A stretch of 9,386 bases of DNA from an uncultured Eubacterium sp. (GTDB lineage Bacteria; Bacillota_A; Clostridia; Lachnospirales; Lachnospiraceae). Made by a program: the position numbers and the translations under genes. Location: NCBI GenBank assembly GCA_948759685.1, contig CAQBGY010000110.1, positions 1 to 9,386 of the forward strand, in the 5' to 3' direction. The notes beneath the pieces were generated by a model. The model searched no databases. It was not told the origin of the DNA and worked only from the letters and a program-made list of their open reading frames with translations. Each line of letters starts with the position of its first letter. Position 1 is the first letter of the stretch. Below, piece after piece: positions 2,633 to 9,386 of this stretch.

Positions 2633-2653
2633 CTATTTTCATTGTGAGAATTA

Positions 2654-2697
2654 TCAAATAGTCATTTGAAACGTTATATAAAGTGACAAATAGTCAC
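2654..2697. promoter_or_regulatory. paired palindromes over the nuclease-operon promoter candidate
   Basis: CAAATAGTCA occurs at 2655-2664 and again at 2687-2696, a 32-bp offset (about three helical turns). Each copy lies in a different dyad: TCAAAT-AGTC-ATTTGA (2654-2669) and GTGAC-AAATA-GTCAC (2683-2697). They overlap a promoter candidate, TTGAAA (2666-2671) then 17 nt then AATAGT (2689-2694), whose transcript would start near 2701. This is where a control protein, such as the HTH protein encoded at 3715-4221, would be expected to bind. Repeats are seen; regulation is inferred. Confidence 0.4.
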
Positions 2698-2743
2698 CAA
2701 TATTGAAAATATAAAGTGTATCGTTAATAGCGAGGTGAATGAT

Positions 2744-3739
2744 ATGGATTTATGGAAATTAATAAATAAATTAAATGAATTGAGTGAATTTTTTTATGCG
2801 AATGGTATAGTAGATATTTATACTAATAGTAAAATCTTTGAGGTTCTTATTGCTAATCAATTTGGACATCAGATTATAAATGGACATGCCTATTCTCCTG
2901 ATGCGAAGGATCAATATGGTAACTTTTATGAGTATAAACATTATAAGCAATCCAGTTCTAATCATACATGGACATTTAATGATTTTACTGATCGAACAAT
3001 TAAAAAGCTATATAATGTAAATTTCGTTTATTTTGTGGTTATAAATGATAAGTATGATATACCCGAAATAGAAAAATTATATATTGTATCTGGAGTAGAA
3101 GTTGCTAAATATATGGAAATAAGTACACAAAATATAGAGAACAAAAGAAAAATGATAAATATCAGTGCCCATCAAATAATTGAAAATATGCCATATACTT
3201 TAGTGGAAACACACAATATAGTATCATGGCATCCTGTAAAAACAGAATTTGAATCAGTATGTTCCATAGCGTTGGAAGAAATTTTTCTTACAGCTAGAAA
3301 AATTGAAGAAATAATTAATGTGGACGGGATTTTGACCAGTAATAAATTATGGGAGTTGTTGGTTGCTTGTAATTTGAATCATAGAATAAATCCCGAACAG
3401 AAAAAACATGATGCTTATGATATAAATGGTAAAACATACGAGTATAAGGTTAGCACAAGGCTCTTATGGATTTTTCAAGATATATCGGCAAATGTTTTGG
3501 ATTCTTATCTGAACGACGAAAAAATTATTTTGGCGCAAGTGGATAAGAGAACATTTACCATAAAAAGTATTATAGCGTGTCATCCTATGGCAGTAATTGA
3601 ATTACTGGAGAAGAAATTAATCATTAGAGAAAAAAGATTGCCTCAAGTGAGGCGTTTGACTGCGAGTATTGGTCTTAAAGATGTTTACAAAATGATTGCG
3701 GAAGGAGATGCAAAGTGGATTCACAGGACATATTTATAG
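2744..3739 (+). CDS. putative restriction endonuclease with two tandem PD-(D/E)XK domains
   Basis: The 331-residue product consists of two diverged copies of one module. Copy 1 (about residues 4-165) has E33 in a helix (IFEVLIA), then PDAKDQYGNFYEYK at 52-65. Copy 2 (about 175-331) has E204 (LWELLVA), then HDAYDINGKTYEYK at 222-235. The shared pattern is D-A-x-D-x-x-G-x-x-Y-E-Y-K, which matches the E...D...ExK core of PD-(D/E)XK nucleases: D53/E63/K65 and D223/E233/K235. An aromatic W-x-F motif follows in both (W76, W242). Both active sites look intact, so one chain could cut both strands or dimerise internally. I do not recognise a named restriction enzyme. ATG 2744 is chosen because GAGGTG (2732-2737) lies 6 nt upstream; a GTG at 2735 would overlap that site. 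It is first in a coupled operon and overlaps the next gene by 25 bp. Confidence 0.7.
   Translation: MDLWKLINKLNELSEFFYANGIVDIYTNSKIFEVLIANQFGHQIINGHAYSPDAKDQYGNFYEYKHYKQSSSNHTWTFNDFTDRTIKKLYNVNFVYFVVINDKYDIPEIEKLYIVSGVEVAKYMEISTQNIENKRKMINISAHQIIENMPYTLVETHNIVSWHPVKTEFESVCSIALEEIFLTARKIEEIINVDGILTSNKLWELLVACNLNHRINPEQKKHDAYDINGKTYEYKVSTRLLWIFQDISANVLDSYLNDEKIILAQVDKRTFTIKSIIACHPMAVIELLEKKLIIREKRLPQVRRLTASIGLKDVYKMIAEGDAKWIHRTYL
3702..3717 (+). promoter_or_regulatory. Shine-Dalgarno and GTG start inside the preceding gene
   Basis: AAGGAG (3702-3707) lies 7 nt before the GTG at 3715-3717, all within the 3' end of the nuclease gene. It fixes the start of the HTH gene and implies translational coupling. 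The weak start codon may keep the level of the product low. Confidence 0.65.
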
Positions 3740-4221
3740 ATAATATCATTAGATTCGCAGGGTATCATAATTTGAATACCTACAGAAAGATTGCAAACTT
3801 TTTAAATGTTACTGAAGACTCGCTAAAACATTGGCAAAGTAAAACCAGATGCCCTTCTCTTAAAAGACTTGATCAGATAAGTGATAAAATAGGATGTTGG
3901 TCGTATGCATTGATACAGAAGGATGGTGATATTTTTGCAGAAATTGAATTACTAAGAAATAATTCAAGAGAAATATTGATAAAAAACTTAAAAGAATATT
4001 TTTTACAAAAGGGACGATTTTCATGGAAAGATAAAGCTGCTTTGTTTTATGGATTTGTCAGCGAAGCTGCTTTAAAATCGTATTTCAGAGAGAAAAATTT
4101 TAAAACGCCACCATTAAAGAAATTAGATGAGATGGCATCTGCATTAGGTAAACCGACATATGAATTAATCAAGGAGGTCAAATTAATTGAGAAAACAGAT
4201 ACCCGAAAAAATAAAGAGTAG
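3715..4221 (+). CDS. protein with two tandem HTH-like repeats, possible controller of the locus
   Basis: This 168-residue protein holds two similar units. Unit 1 (about residues 20-68) reads from TYRKIANFLNVTEDSLKHW to PSLKRLDQISDKIG and SYALIQ. Unit 2 (about 102-155) reads from WKDKAALFYGFVSEAALKSY to PPLKKLDEMASALG and TYELIK. Both share the order helix - turn - LK(H/S)(W/Y) - PxLK(R/K)LD - short helix - (S/T)YxLI, like Cro/XRE-type HTH folds. Control (C) proteins of restriction-modification systems are small HTH regulators, but they normally carry one HTH and dimerise; this one would carry both in one chain. It could instead be a DNA-recognition subunit for its neighbours. The GTG start has a good ribosome site. 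It overlaps the nuclease gene by 25 bp and the methyltransferase gene by 35 bp. Confidence 0.6.
   Translation: MDSQDIFIDNIIRFAGYHNLNTYRKIANFLNVTEDSLKHWQSKTRCPSLKRLDQISDKIGCWSYALIQKDGDIFAEIELLRNNSREILIKNLKEYFLQKGRFSWKDKAALFYGFVSEAALKSYFREKNFKTPPLKKLDEMASALGKPTYELIKEVKLIEKTDTRKNKE
4171..4189 (+). promoter_or_regulatory. strong Shine-Dalgarno with TTG start
   Basis: AAGGAGGT (4171-4178), a near-perfect anti-16S match, lies 8 nt before the TTG at 4187-4189. No nearby in-frame ATG fits, because the next Met is residue 31. The strong site with a weak codon, placed inside the upstream gene, points to coupled and tuned translation. Confidence 0.65.
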
Positions 4222-6571
4222 ATTAAATAAAATTAAAACAGCTATTGAAGATGTTCCTAATACTGTTCCTAATGAAATGCGGACGACTTTTAATTTTAAA
4301 GGCAGGAAGTCTCCTATTATAGCTGAAAAAGTAATAGAAGCAATAAGTGATAGTGAAGATGTTATATATGATCCTTTTATGGGTTCCGGTTCATTTGTAT
4401 ATGCTGCGATGGGAAAAGTAAAAAAGATTTATGCTACGGAATTGGACAATTATACATTTAATGCTGTAAGTGTATTGATGAATAAGGTAGATATGCTTAA
4501 ATTAAGTAAATTATTTGATGCTGTTAAAGAAGATGTATATGAGCAGATAATGAGATTATATGAAACATCATGTTGTGGTAGCAAAAATTATATAAGTAAA
4601 GTTTTGTTTGATCCTGAAGAAGGCAAAGAAGGATATTTTAATCCATCTAATAATAGGGAAATAATAGATGGTAAAAATATAAAACTTATAGAAAAATGTC
4701 CAGTATGTGGTGGTAAGTCCAAAAAATTTGATGATGAAGATTATCAAAAGTTAGTTAGACTAGAAAAAGTAGATGTAGAAAGATTTCCAAGAAATCAATA
4801 TATTGTAAATAGCAGGATTAATATTACATCATCAACAGGCGCGGATAAATATGATAGGATTTTTACACAAAGAAATAAAATTGCTTTATTGATTTTACAA
4901 GATGCAATTAATAAAATTGAACCATCAGACGAAAAAGATGTATTAGAACAAGTTTTGGTTGCCTCTATTTCGCTTGCAAGAATTGCTATGTACGGTTCCA
5001 GCACCGATATATTATATCATGTAGTGGGGCATGGGGCACAGGATATGAATGTTTGGCTACTTTTTGAGGAAAAGTATAAAAGTTTTTGTAAATTCAAGTC
5101 CGTTTATAGCGATAAACAAATAGGAACAACAGATTCAACTGTAATAATTGCCAATAAGGACTATGCAGAGTATATTAAAGAAAACCCTGATCTGAAAGTA
5201 GATATTATCTATACTGATTTTCCATATACTGACCAAGTTCCATATTTAGAAAGAAATCAATTATATCGTATTTGGTTGGAAAAGTTTTATGATTCTAAAT
5301 ATGCATTAACAGAAGATATGTTGAAGCAAGAAATAGTTCTAACAAATGCAGAGTCAAGAATTGAAAAAAGGGATATAGAGAATTACTATAAAGATATTGA
5401 CAATATGTTTTCTCATTTTTATAGCGTATTAAATGAAGATGGGCTTGTGTTTCTTACAATGAAACTGGGGAAAGCAAAGTATTTTAAAACTTATATAGAA
5501 ATTGTAAATTTAGCTCGCAAAAACGGTTTCGAGTATGCATATCAAATTGGAGTTGAAAAAAAAGATCCGACAATAAGAAAGCAATCAGCGTTCACCAATA
5601 CATTTATGAATGAGATGATAGTTGTTTTTTATAAATTACCAAAAGAGGATAGATATTGGTATATTGGTAACGAAAATTATGAGTTTTTACTTGTTAAAAA
5701 AGTGTATTTATACCTAATTCGAACAAAAGAATATGTGACATTATCAAGTGCCGTAACTCTCGTTTGCAATGACTTAAAGTCAAAATATTCATATTTAGCT
5801 AGTGAACAAGATATATTGAAAATAAAGACTCTGTTACAGCAATATTTTAAGGTAGATGCGGGCTGCATACAAATCGATAATAATCAATTATATTTAGATA
5901 TTGAGGATACAACGGATTTGTATACAAAATTATATGACTTAATGCCAATTTTTATTAGACAACTTTTGGACAGTAAAGGCAAGTTTGTATTAGAAGATGT
6001 TTACTTCGAGTTGGTCAATTCGTTATGTGATGGTAATCCCAAAACGATTGCACAAATTTTAGAAGATGAAAACCATCAAAGAGATATTGGTAATTTAATA
6101 TTAAATTATTGTGAAAAAGACGGGCAATATTATGTTGAAAGACAAGATATTAGTAAACCTAATGAGAATGCGATTGATATATCAACATTAAGTGGTACAG
6201 ATTTTGAAATTTTAGTACAAAGTTTACTGAAAAAAGAAGGGTATGAAAATGTTATAAAGATGGGAGGGGCAGGTGACTTAGGTGTTGATATTATTGCCTC
6301 TAAACGTCAACAGGATAGATTGTTGCATTATATTTTCCAGTGTAAACGTTGGGCTTCAAATGTTGGTTCTGACCCTATACAGAGATTATATGCTGAAAGG
6401 ATGAGAAGAAGATTGGACTATGCAGTTTGTGTGACGACCTCTGGGTATACCAAAGATGGTAAAAAGGTGGCATTTGATCTTGAGGTTGAGACTGTAGATG
6501 GAAATCAGTTGATGCAACGTCTTAACAAATACTTTCCGGGAGAGTATTATAATGGAATTCAAGATATATAA
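4187..6571 (+). CDS. Zn-ribbon DNA amino-methyltransferase fused to an Mrr-type nuclease domain
   Basis: This 794-residue fusion would both modify and cut DNA. The N-terminal methyltransferase (about 1-485) has SAM motif I DPFMGSGS (62-69) and an acidic motif II (E85-D87). An insertion follows with a Zn-ribbon-like Cys set (C129-C130 and C171-P-V-C174). Catalytic motif IV is at 343-347 in TDFPYTDQVPYLERNQLY. That order (motif I, Zn ribbon, motif IV) is typical of the Zn-ribbon adenine-methylase group (COG1743-like). Motif IV is DFPY, not DPPY; the TTT codon is two changes from proline, so a sequencing slip is unlikely. About 485-660 is unassigned. The C-terminus (663-785) matches Mrr_cat: LSGTDFEILVQSLL (E674), GGAGDLGVD (D701), QCK (Q718, K720). 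The TTG start is set by its ribosome site. It is last in the operon. Confidence 0.82.
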   Translation: MRKQIPEKIKSRLNKIKTAIEDVPNTVPNEMRTTFNFKGRKSPIIAEKVIEAISDSEDVIYDPFMGSGSFVYAAMGKVKKIYATELDNYTFNAVSVLMNKVDMLKLSKLFDAVKEDVYEQIMRLYETSCCGSKNYISKVLFDPEEGKEGYFNPSNNREIIDGKNIKLIEKCPVCGGKSKKFDDEDYQKLVRLEKVDVERFPRNQYIVNSRINITSSTGADKYDRIFTQRNKIALLILQDAINKIEPSDEKDVLEQVLVASISLARIAMYGSSTDILYHVVGHGAQDMNVWLLFEEKYKSFCKFKSVYSDKQIGTTDSTVIIANKDYAEYIKENPDLKVDIIYTDFPYTDQVPYLERNQLYRIWLEKFYDSKYALTEDMLKQEIVLTNAESRIEKRDIENYYKDIDNMFSHFYSVLNEDGLVFLTMKLGKAKYFKTYIEIVNLARKNGFEYAYQIGVEKKDPTIRKQSAFTNTFMNEMIVVFYKLPKEDRYWYIGNENYEFLLVKKVYLYLIRTKEYVTLSSAVTLVCNDLKSKYSYLASEQDILKIKTLLQQYFKVDAGCIQIDNNQLYLDIEDTTDLYTKLYDLMPIFIRQLLDSKGKFVLEDVYFELVNSLCDGNPKTIAQILEDENHQRDIGNLILNYCEKDGQYYVERQDISKPNENAIDISTLSGTDFEILVQSLLKKEGYENVIKMGGAGDLGVDIIASKRQQDRLLHYIFQCKRWASNVGSDPIQRLYAERMRRRLDYAVCVTTSGYTKDGKKVAFDLEVETVDGNQLMQRLNKYFPGEYYNGIQDI

Positions 6572-6572
6572 G

Positions 6573-6603
6573 CACAAATGCGAGGAGAATCCTCGCATTT
6601 GTG
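6573..6603. terminator. bidirectional terminator between convergent genes
   Basis: CACAAATGCGAGGA (6573-6586) pairs perfectly with TCCTCGCATTTGTG (6590-6603) around a GAA loop, a 14-bp stem with a GC-rich centre. It starts 2 nt after the stop codon of the methyltransferase-Mrr gene and ends 1 nt before the stop codon of the convergent gene, so it occupies the whole gap. The U-run is weak on both sides, but position and stem strength fit a shared terminator or 3'-end stabiliser. Confidence 0.8.
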
Positions 6604-9386
6604 TCATTTCCATTTAGCTGTAGAAGAATCCCACGTTAGATGTTTATCAAAAATATCAACTAAAGAAGAATATTTATTTGACAGTTTAGATAACCAGCCG
6701 TTCTGGATTAAAATTTCCATAAGTCCATTGTCATATAATTCGGGAGTAGACATCGAACCATTTGATTTTACCATAAATTTAGCTTGGCGAATAATATTGT
6801 GCTCGATTTCGGATATGTCTTCTTCGGCGTTGTGTTTTATAGGAGCAACACCTTTTGAAAAAATAAGTACAGAGTCACCATTTAACGATTTTTTAGGACT
6901 AATAATATTTTTTAAAGTAACAGTCTTATCAATGTGTATTTGAGTGATAAATCTAAAACAGTTTCTTTCCAAGATAGTGATTAGTTCGTTCCAAACATTT
7001 AAATCACTATCATGAAAATACAAACATAAATAATGGTTCGGTTTCAGTTTATGGGAACACATATGAAAAACTTGCTCCAATAAATTAAAATAGTCTCCCT
7101 TGCTCTTGTTGCGGGAAGGTGCAGAAGAAACAATTATTTCATCTTTTAAGTTATAATCTAAATTTAAAAATGGTTTGTATAACTGCATATATTCGGAATA
7201 CAGAACTTGTTCCAAATAGGGAGGGTCAGTTACAATTAAATCCACACCATTATCTGGTATATCCTGTTCGGTTATTGATTGACTACCTTTTTGCAATAAT
7301 AAGCATTTACAGGGAGAAAGAGAACTATATGATTCAACTATTTCGGAATCAGTATAATTTTCTTTCATAAATGGTATGACTTCATAAAATTTTTTGATTT
7401 TCTTTGTATAAATATCTATAATATTTTTCTCAACACAATCAGTTTTAGGTATCCATAACGGCCATTGAGAATTTGAATGTTTATCAGTTATCTTACATAG
7501 ATGCAATATGGACATCAGAATATATTTTAAAATAGTTTGATGCTTTTCGCTATATTTGTTAATTATGCTCAATATTTCGTCTAGTACGGATAAGTTACGT
7601 CCCGTAAATATGTTTTTAATATCATCATTTTCGGTTACTGCTATCTTGGAGTTATAGAGTAAGGTAGTATTGCTGATATTTTTTAATACTGGGGTAACAT
7701 TAATTTTTGCATAGTCGCTTTCATCAGCAGTCTTAATGCCTCTTTTTGTACACTTGCATGTATAATTGATGGTTTTAATTATTATCTTTGAACCTGTTCT
7801 CTCTGGTTTGTCAAATATTACTTTTGAAATAGTGCCGGTTTTTTTACATATTGGACAAGTGGTTTCATAGTAGTGAAACAATGTGTTTAGTTCTGATATA
7901 AAGTTTTCGAGCTCTTTTTTTATATTTGGAATGGTATTAACGGATAATAAAAGTTTTGAAATGAATAATGGCATATCGTTAATATCACAACCAATAGCGC
8001 AACGAGACAAATCTGTTTTAATGGCTTCGAGTGTTGTTACTCCGGATCCAAGAAATGGATCAAAGACAACATCACCTCTATTTGACAGAGAATTTATCAA
8101 TGTATCACAGATATTAAATGCTTTTTGCGACCAATACATATGAGAGTTATACATTGAATTGTTTTTACTTGGCAATAGGTTGCATAAAGTTTTTTTTAGC
8201 GAATCAATATTAACTTGATTCAAATTTTTATCACCACATAGTATCAAATATTCGAGAACTTTTTTTTGTTCACTGTTTCGATGGTTCGCATGATTATAAT
8301 TTTGCGTTACTACATTAACACGAGCATTTGTGTAATATTTTTTTGCGAGTTCTACTAATTCGTCAATTGAAACGGTATACCTGTCCGTGGCTTGTATTTC
8401 TCTGTCTTGAGGATATGCATAACTAATAGCAAGGTTCGTATGTGCGTGCGCACAGAAGCTGATTAAATTTTCTAATGATTGCTTAGCTGAACCACGTTGA
8501 CTTAGTTTTGATTGATAGCGTCCTTCAGTATATAAACCTTTGGTATAACCATTTTTGGTAACGGTTAACAAGGGATACTCATATTTGGCAGCTACATTTA
8601 GCAGATGATAATATCTTGAATATTGCATATCCGTATATGGCGGATCTGCATAAACTAAACCTACATTAGAAAAAAGTTTTTCGTCTAATAATTCCTCAAA
8701 ATTAGAATTAAAGATCATGTTCTTTCCAGAAAATTTGGAAAGAGGAACACTGATATATTCCTTGAATTTTTTAATGAATAATTCATAAATATTCTTTTTC
8801 CGTTGAACAAAAAGACGACTTTGATTTTTTTCAGGATTCAGTGGTTGAGCCATGTGACCATCTTTGGAAAAAACGGCTTCTTTCATTGCATAAAACAAGC
8901 ATGAAAGCAAGGCAGTCTTATATTCTGTAAAACTTGTATTAATCACTTTGATGATACAATCAATATCGAGTGCTTGGATTATCCCGTAGTAGTTTGTGGC
9001 ATAATATGTTGTAAATAGATAAAAATCCTTAGTGCTTTTTATGCCATCAACTGTCAATAGAGATTTAGTTATTTGGGAATATTGGTTGTTCCAAACAGTT
9101 GGATATGAATTATAAAGAGCAATCAATTCTTCAAAGTTTTCATGTTCTAATGCTTGCTGTTCATGGTTTATAAAATTTATAATAGGATTTGCCTGTTTTT
9201 TAATAGTAGTAGTATATTCTATGTCTAGTGAATGAAGGAGGTTAGAAGCAGCTTCTATATCTGCTTGATTTAAAATAGCGTCAGCTATTATACTTGCATA
9301 ACATTCGACATCATTCGCATAGACTTGATAATTATCTCTAAACATATTGCTAACAGCAGCAGAACCTGAAAAAATATCTAAAATTG
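6604..9386 (-). CDS. double DNA methyltransferase: two amino-methylase modules in one chain (5' end outside window)
   Basis: The frame stays open to the right edge, so the true start is outside; 926 residues are visible, numbered here from the first full codon. Module 1 begins at the edge with SAM motif I ILDIFSGSAAVSNMF (1-15; GSA where GSG is usual) and NDVE, then motif IV ADPPYTDMQYSRYYHLL (246-262), resembling COG3392-type adenine methylases. Module 2 starts near 410 (YWSQKAF) with motif I DPFLGSGVTTLEA (442-454), a Zn-ribbon-like set (C510-P-I-C513, C543-K-C545), and motif IV TDPPYLEQVLYSEYMQLY (719-736). Module 2 is clearly paralogous to the methylase in the 4187-6571 protein: both share TDxPYxxQVxYxExxQLY. 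Both DPPY sites are intact, so the protein could methylate two bases, for example one per strand of an asymmetric site, as in two-domain type IIS methylases such as M.FokI. Its promoter is outside. Confidence 0.85.
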   Translation of the reverse strand, partial: ILDIFSGSAAVSNMFRDNYQVYANDVECYASIIADAILNQADIEAASNLLHSLDIEYTTTIKKQANPIINFINHEQQALEHENFEELIALYNSYPTVWNNQYSQITKSLLTVDGIKSTKDFYLFTTYYATNYYGIIQALDIDCIIKVINTSFTEYKTALLSCLFYAMKEAVFSKDGHMAQPLNPEKNQSRLFVQRKKNIYELFIKKFKEYISVPLSKFSGKNMIFNSNFEELLDEKLFSNVGLVYADPPYTDMQYSRYYHLLNVAAKYEYPLLTVTKNGYTKGLYTEGRYQSKLSQRGSAKQSLENLISFCAHAHTNLAISYAYPQDREIQATDRYTVSIDELVELAKKYYTNARVNVVTQNYNHANHRNSEQKKVLEYLILCGDKNLNQVNIDSLKKTLCNLLPSKNNSMYNSHMYWSQKAFNICDTLINSLSNRGDVVFDPFLGSGVTTLEAIKTDLSRCAIGCDINDMPLFISKLLLSVNTIPNIKKELENFISELNTLFHYYETTCPICKKTGTISKVIFDKPERTGSKIIIKTINYTCKCTKRGIKTADESDYAKINVTPVLKNISNTTLLYNSKIAVTENDDIKNIFTGRNLSVLDEILSIINKYSEKHQTILKYILMSILHLCKITDKHSNSQWPLWIPKTDCVEKNIIDIYTKKIKKFYEVIPFMKENYTDSEIVESYSSLSPCKCLLLQKGSQSITEQDIPDNGVDLIVTDPPYLEQVLYSEYMQLYKPFLNLDYNLKDEIIVSSAPSRNKSKGDYFNLLEQVFHMCSHKLKPNHYLCLYFHDSDLNVWNELITILERNCFRFITQIHIDKTVTLKNIISPKKSLNGDSVLIFSKGVAPIKHNAEEDISEIEHNIIRQAKFMVKSNGSMSTPELYDNGLMEILIQNGWLSKLSNKYSSLVDIFDKHLTWDSSTAKWK

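Follow-up and report, generated by a model that had tools for sequence, protein, structure and literature searches.

A candidate controller-regulated restriction-modification locus with a tandem PvuII-like nuclease, a methylase-Mrr fusion and a double methylase

Many Type IIA restriction enzymes are described as being accompanied by one or two methylases, each acting on one strand, and Type IIT enzymes as carrying two different catalytic sites (PMC4081073). The fused D12/YhdJ-class methylase M12.MhoVII is reported to methylate complementary non-palindromic motifs, with the MhoVII nuclease cutting only unmethylated DNA (PMC12898733). In controller-regulated restriction-modification (R-M) systems, C proteins are reported to boost a downstream, co-transcribed restriction endonuclease (REase) gene (PMC12707154), and in a PvuII-type system the regulator and REase genes overlap (PMC2997769). 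The operators described for such systems (C-boxes) place GAC and GTC on either side of a TATA spacer, with a TG further out; the Esp1396I oligonucleotide ATGTGACTTATAGTCGTGTGATTA is an example (PMC3758141), and the form GACT-tat-AGTC has also been published (PMC4824078). Here, we have analysed a 9,386-nucleotide stretch of contig CAQBGY010000110.1 from an uncultured Eubacterium sp. (the window), whose positions 2744-9386 hold a locus of four proteins that we named R, C, MMrr and MM. On balance, we favour the view that this locus is a controller-regulated R-M system, probably directed at an asymmetric site, in which MM would be the protecting enzyme and MMrr the original restriction subunit, to which R, a Type IIT-like cutter, was added later.

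The genes of R (2744..3739), C (3715..4221) and MMrr (4187..6571) form one rightward operon on the forward strand and overlap by 25 nt (R/C) and 35 nt (C/MMrr), whereas that of MM (6604..9386, reverse strand) is convergent. R was predicted to be a tandem PvuII-like nuclease with two complete active sites, C a tandem helix-turn-helix (HTH) protein and probable single-chain controller, MMrr a DNA methylase (approximately residues 1-490) fused to a C-terminal Mrr nuclease (approximately residues 661-794), and MM a double methylase. The sequence-only reading had counted three methylase and three nuclease modules spread over three proteins (R, MMrr and MM), and this was confirmed by the open reading frames (ORFs), Pfam, half-alignments and homologs. 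Its claim that R and C are each internally duplicated also held. The local alignment of the R halves scored 83 against a shuffle mean of 31.5 (standard deviation 5.3) and that of the C halves 56 against 23.2 (standard deviation 4.4), with none of 1000 shuffles reaching the observed score in either case, so the halves of each protein are homologous. The R ORF opens at GTG 2735; we have set the start at ATG 2744 because the homolog P0001 begins at the matching residue. MM is open at the window edge, with its start codon and first 38 residues outside; the complete protein, in the near-identical contig L053, has 964 residues.

The best PDB match of R, both by sequence profile and by fold, was 3ksk, an engineered single-chain PvuII, and by this comparison both R halves have the PvuII fold (PF09225). 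Each half carries a putative catalytic D/E/K set (D56/E66/K68 and D226/E236/K238, numbered on the 334-residue ORF), which we matched to PvuII through the roles of its active-site residues. Both sets were invariant in 75 of 75 aligned rows, these being the window and 74 listed homologs, which are related and not independent. The tandem-nuclease reading needs such homologs, since R of the window alone lies below the Pfam cut-off for PvuII (PF09225; 15.9 versus 25 bits) and a single-sequence PDB search with it returned two unrelated chains and no nuclease. PF09225 is precomputed on 114 of the 120 R homologs listed, out of 364. Judged by its sequence, R is a putative natural counterpart of the engineered single-chain PvuII, a tandem in one chain and not the one-domain homodimer of the PvuII family. 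Its halves have clearly diverged, so that one chain would hold two different catalytic sites, as in Type IIT enzymes, and the target site is probably asymmetric. A search with the C-terminal half retrieved 14 proteins, 13 of which retain first-half residues and are cut or broken tandems; P0247 matched the second half only, and a one-domain relative is thus possible. A second group of R proteins (P0101-P0120 type) has GHSGS ahead of the first active site and occurs, by the names among the matches listed, in Patescibacteria, Oligoflexia and Clostridia.

On the reverse strand, MM comprises a MethyltransfD12 domain (about 8230-9384, E 1.7e-10) and an N6_N4_Mtase domain (about 6607-8229, E 2.6e-20). 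Two related loci, L010 and L066, have MM as two separate genes; MM can therefore be read as two enzymes in one chain, for which we propose the behaviour of M12.MhoVII as a model. The M2 half of MM matched PglXI of BREX in PADLOC (E 2.6e-27). A BREX identity was discarded, this partial match on MM being the only sign of it; PADLOC identified no BREX partner such as PglZ or BrxC in a search confined to nine proteins, four from the window and five neighbours in L053.

MMrr and MM contain paralogous methylases: that of MMrr and the second one of MM are 26% identical over 450 residues (E 8e-20). Pfam assigned N6_N4_Mtase (E 3e-12) and Mrr_cat (E 4e-22) to MMrr, and a single-sequence PDB search gave no match. 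We have aligned 34 MMrr rows (the window, 10 loci and 23 listed homologs, again related and not independent). The Mrr residues E674, D701, Q718 and K720 were conserved in all of them, as was methylase motif X (F-x-F-x-GRKS); motif I was recognisable and slightly variable, reading DPFMGSGS in 27 rows. In L012, MMrr is frameshifted near residue 628 (around 11884) in the metagenome-assembled genome, which could be an assembly error.

C has 168 residues and two HTH segments, with an HTH_3 match (E 6.6e-4) below the family cut-off. An operator of the form GTGAC-N5-GTCAC lies ahead of the operon and is the only conserved element among otherwise unlike upstream sequences. In the window, the C-box-like proximal operator GTGACAAATAGTCAC occupies 2683..2697 and a distal half-site, ATCAAATAGTCAT, occupies 2653..2665 with its core AGTCA at 2660-2664, both on the forward strand. 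The element GTGACNNATAGTCAC was found at 0-1 mismatch upstream of the operon in all eight loci with a close-type C and the region visible (window/L001, L002, L003, L004, L005, L006, L009 and L011), and in none of 20 mononucleotide shuffles of the window. No match at up to 3 mismatches was obtained in L007 (C remnant), L008 or L012 (no C), and the region ahead of MM in L053 gave none at 0-2 mismatches. In six of seven loci examined, the AGTCA of the proximal operator is preceded, at a distance of 32 bp, by a second AGTCA; L005 has AATCA instead. Promoter-like hexamers overlap the operator, a weak indication (5 found versus 1.7 expected). By sequence comparison, the operator closely resembles the Esp1396I C-box (published OL ATGTGACTTATAGTCGTG; PMC3758141). 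A putative C-box thus precedes the operon that holds the regulator, as in controller systems, the loci with a divergent C excepted.

We have collected related loci through MMrr or R. Scanning species genomes with MMrr yielded 12 loci (32 pattern stretches, 14 confirmed); further loci came from L019, a phage-labelled faecal scaffold, and from samples of 397, 398 and 394 genomes. The DFPY lineage, to which the window belongs, comprises 15 loci (L001-L012, L019, L065 and L066). In the family search, 93 of 397 genomes matched, G001, G007, G089 and G335 over nearly the whole of MMrr and G181 with a broken copy; the others match, by reading, mostly the Mrr domain and were left out of the count. MM accompanied MMrr, convergently, in all 13 checkable loci, the contigs of L006 and L009 ending before MM. 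It adjoined MMrr directly in 12; in L066 the two are 3.5 kb apart, separated by genes for PhoU_div, a PHO4 transporter and GGDEF (10341-13164). C was kept in 12 of the 15 loci, each time immediately ahead of MMrr, as a regulator overlapping a nuclease gene would be; L007 has a remnant, and L008 and L012 have none. R was intact in six (L001, L002, L004, L006, L011 and L019, where the record ends within the gene), whereas L003 has a decayed copy and eight loci have none. Pseudobacteroides cellulosolvens ATCC 35603, with a single-contig genome (PMC4582573), has all four genes, R, C, MMrr and MM, in L011/L068. Both C and the operator were retained in three loci without an intact R (L003, L005 and L009).

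An MMrr tree of 18 rows, with four of 15 inner branches strongly supported, placed the C-containing, R-less loci L065, L010 and L066 at its base and mixed R-containing and R-less loci above them. This suggests, with moderate support, that an older C-MMrr/MM system gained R once and then lost it several times. Where computable, the ratio of nonsynonymous to synonymous substitution rates (dN/dS) in MMrr was 0.06-0.12 over the methylase, 0.02-0.07 over the middle part and 0.02-0.17 over the Mrr domain, and that in MM was 0.04-0.09; the pairs are those with L001 or L007, dS was near saturation for most of them and several ratios were not computable. L007 and L008 both lack R and an intact C, and the ratios between them were 0.06-0.10, so MM and MMrr are under purifying selection there, too. 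Given the purifying selection, decay of MMrr was rejected or set low.

We have taken MMrr as the core cutter because it holds the nuclease position downstream of C and is retained without R; R was rejected or set low as the core nuclease, being absent from eight of the 15 loci. The expectation that the homologs recur together was borne out for MM and MMrr. The idea of one system stands in so far as the locus recurs, and is not supported for an indivisible unit, given the fate of R. The sequence-only reading had suggested that the tandem nuclease could be the cutter and the Mrr fusion a second layer. This order is probably reversed, with MMrr the core and R the add-on, since MM-MMrr is constant and under purifying selection even without R, while R varies. 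That the double methylase is the protecting enzyme remains likely. In L005, R's place upstream of C is taken by three opposite-strand genes (2663-8735; 1007, 519 and 522 residues), with Pfam matches in the third gene only (nSTAND3, AAA_22).

The simplest account of these data, a classical controller-regulated system, runs as follows. MM, expressed early from its own promoter, would methylate both strands, one strand per domain. C would bind the C-box-like operator and the half-site 32 bp away and would delay the rightward operon until protection is set, C accumulating first and R and MMrr following. The methylase part of MMrr would read the site of MM and the Mrr domain would cut unprotected DNA. 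R, inserted upstream of C and placed under the same control, would be a dispensable second cutter, presumably sharing the asymmetric target.

Several observations weigh against this explanation. Motif IV of MMrr reads TDFPY in 30 of the 34 rows, TDPPY in two, TDIPY in one and TAFTY in one. An intact Type IIG motif IV is (N/D/S)PP(Y/F), and DFPY in place of DPPY makes the methylase activity of MMrr uncertain; a change at the second place is not by itself proof of lost activity, and an NLPY-type motif IV is known from active rRNA adenine methylases. R has evolved much faster than MM and MMrr, with a dN of 0.25-0.44 between L001 and L004, L006, L011 and L019, and may therefore not share their site. 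As all loci were found through MMrr or R, an MM without MMrr would have escaped notice. With 168 residues and a tandem HTH, C falls outside the short C protein family and is much longer than even the large C.Csp231I, given as 98 residues (PMC3115060). Searched against the PDB up to E 1, a profile of 11 C proteins had eight matches, and no controller is named among them. Since it matches general HTH proteins and not solved controllers, we regard C as controller-like in its working without filing it in that family. In the divergent-C loci L010, L065 and L066, the operator was not found upstream of C, and L008, although it has no C, retains 18 bases identical to the distal element. Moreover, the ORF lists read for the distant MM-MMrr pairs that stand beside Gabija genes, described next, contain no R and no C.

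Those pairs invite another explanation, in which MM and MMrr form a three-methylase modification and sensing core with interchangeable killing modules. One lineage would use a single-chain PvuII-like nuclease of Type IIT under controller regulation, and another Gabija. The conserved DFPY methylase of MMrr would license the Mrr nuclease of its own chain by reading the marks of MM instead of adding marks itself. Pairs of a distant MM fusion and an MMrr homolog (25-30% identity) were present in L050, L051 and L067 and, in broken form, in L052; together with the Gabija genes, they span 3532-14000, 5571-16013, 4446-14896 and 3345-11002, respectively. GajB was identified in all four and GajA in three: L051 (GajA E 1.7e-215, GajB E 1.1e-206), L052 (6e-216 and 2e-211) and L067 (3.7e-216 and 6.5e-208). 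L050 gave GajB (E 1.5e-241), and its stretch ends inside an apparent GajA. The Gabija genes follow MMrr in L051, L052 and L067 and lie upstream of MM in L050, where the ORF adjoining GajB had no Pfam match. By reading, L052 has lost the second methylase of MM and much of that of MMrr through an internal deletion (7166-9617); L051 contains a PDC-S01 match. We treat a functional link between MM-MMrr and Gabija only as a possibility, because about two lineages stand behind the four loci and defence genes tend to cluster in any case, and we consider the explanation as a whole possible, if unlikely. To our knowledge, Gabija is not known to use DNA methylation marks; if the neighbourhood is functional, it would tie such marks to Gabija.

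A clearly unlikely alternative is that R and MM are the real R-M pair, a Type IIT cutter with a two-strand methylase, and that MMrr is an accessory, for instance a guard or a back-up methylase. Such a pair would agree with the intact active sites in all 75 R rows and with the Type IIA and Type IIT arrangements described in PMC4081073. It is at odds with the persistence of MMrr in the eight loci without R and in the one with a decayed R, and with the R-less loci at the base of the tree.

We find it distinctly improbable that MMrr is a modification-dependent, Type IV-like nuclease for foreign-methylated DNA, restrained by the host pattern of MM. The Mrr_cat domain and a PADLOC mREase_IV match over residues 664-777 (E 2.2e-9) speak for it, and DFPY could mark a methylase turned reader. 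However, a winged-helix (modification-sensing) domain had no Pfam match in MMrr up to E 1, the methylase part is under purifying selection with motif X in every row and motif I recognisable, and two distant rows have the canonical DPPY.

That the locus is a defence-island cluster of independent neighbours, R going with C and MM with MMrr, seems to us very doubtful. R does come and go among the loci, MM-MMrr also stands beside Gabija, and none of nine further R rows of the distant group (contigs of at least 5 kb) shares a contig size with a listed MMrr row. However, the R-C-MMrr genes overlap, C and the operator persist in the three loci without an intact R, and 13 of 62 R rows share the exact size of their longest contig with an MMrr row, against a mean of 0.43 and a maximum of 3 in offset controls. 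The 62 are the rows with a longest contig of at least 5 kb among the first 100 of the 120 R rows listed (of 364), and the MMrr side consists of 120 listed of 519 rows. On this test and the tree, a chance neighbourhood was rejected or set low. Poorest of all are the prospects of R being modification-dependent in the manner of NhoI/Eco15I, BisI-family nucleases whose closest canonical relative is PvuII.

Around the locus, the window holds an inverted repeat at 6573..6603, between the convergent stop codons of MMrr and MM, whose perfect 14-bp arms (6573-6586 and 6590-6603) make it a likely bidirectional terminator. A MobV-like (Mob_Pre/MobV) relaxase gene is found at 754-2076, ahead of the locus. 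Rfam and tRNA scans of the window gave no match. A Petralouisia muris contig equals the window at 95.7% of positions (fixed offset), and its R, C, MMrr and MM are 99-100% identical to those of the window. In L010, the segment 8508-14018 holds two MobV-like genes, an AAA_25 gene and a phage-type integrase. Based on the MobV-like genes and the integrase, the locus may travel on mobile elements.

Among plasmids, R had no match and MMrr matched 17 records, none covering 80% of MMrr. Among phage records, R matched one unannotated faecal scaffold, MT836948, and MMrr four records, of which this scaffold alone matched over the full MMrr. A distant R (P0113) had no plasmid match and, among phages, matched only the same scaffold. 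Searches of viral contigs with R, MM and the R profile gave pattern stretches and no relative. Labelled bacteriophage, the scaffold (L019, MT836948.1) carries an R-C-MMrr/MM locus, and its gene at 6782-7840 matches, over residues 12-135, the PADLOC family labelled Aga_REase-PNTD1-PNTD2. The R profile found G001 and one 74-residue stretch in G463 among 398 phylum genomes, and G011 only among 58 order genomes; the G463 stretch was rejected as an R relative, its locus reading as repeat proteins.

Each part of the locus is known in kind. As far as our literature searches reach, what is new is the way in which they are combined, together with the form of two of them, a single-chain PvuII-like nuclease and a tandem regulator. 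The claim that the locus fits no named type was upheld for the whole and qualified for the parts, which relate to Type IIT and PvuII (R), to M.FokI and M12.MhoVII (MM) and to controller systems (operator). Family libraries and paper searches, with REBASE and subscription papers outside their scope, gave no description of the whole assembly, and in the paper searches we saw neither a tandem PvuII nuclease from nature nor a methylase fused to Mrr in the way of MMrr. Nature appears to have made the covalently joined PvuII of the engineers, and since the halves of R have diverged, asymmetric-site cutters and strand-specific nickases might be drawn from its family. The locus further illustrates the gain and loss of a second nuclease within an R-M system that keeps a single regulator, and it provides a probable example of a single-chain regulator whose operator can be recognised.

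Type IIG enzymes, of which Eco57I is a close example, usually carry their nuclease at the N-terminus. Like the Type IIG enzymes described in PMC4081073, MMrr has nuclease and methylase in one chain and a separate methylase beside it. It differs in that the nuclease is of the Mrr type and C-terminal, and that motif IV is DFPY. With Type IV Mrr it shares the Mrr_cat domain and not the winged helix, which was not matched. Gabija occurs beside the distant MM-MMrr pairs only, GajA and GajB not being among the four window proteins and the five L053 neighbours. MM has two methylase domains in one chain, as reported for M.FokI (PMC4081073) and for M12.MhoVII, which likewise pairs D12 with a YhdJ-class domain (PMC12898733). 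It differs from both in having D12 first and N6_N4 second, and in the third methylase, within MMrr, that is paralogous to its own second one. R shares with PvuII and single-chain PvuII (3ksk) the fold over both halves and the D-x9-E-x-K sites, of which each molecule has two; PvuII acts on CAGCTG as a homodimer, whereas R appears to be a natural covalent tandem with unlike halves. Two different catalytic sites per chain and methylases nearby are also reported for the single-chain Type IIT enzymes Mva1269I, BtsCI and BsrI (PMC4081073), from which R differs in its PvuII-like domains and in being co-transcribed with a second nuclease. Finally, the regulator gene overlapping a nuclease gene and the GTGAC-N5-GTC operator are shared with the Esp1396I and PvuII controller systems, from which the locus is set apart by a 168-residue tandem-HTH regulator, a half-site 32 bp upstream and two nuclease genes in the operon.

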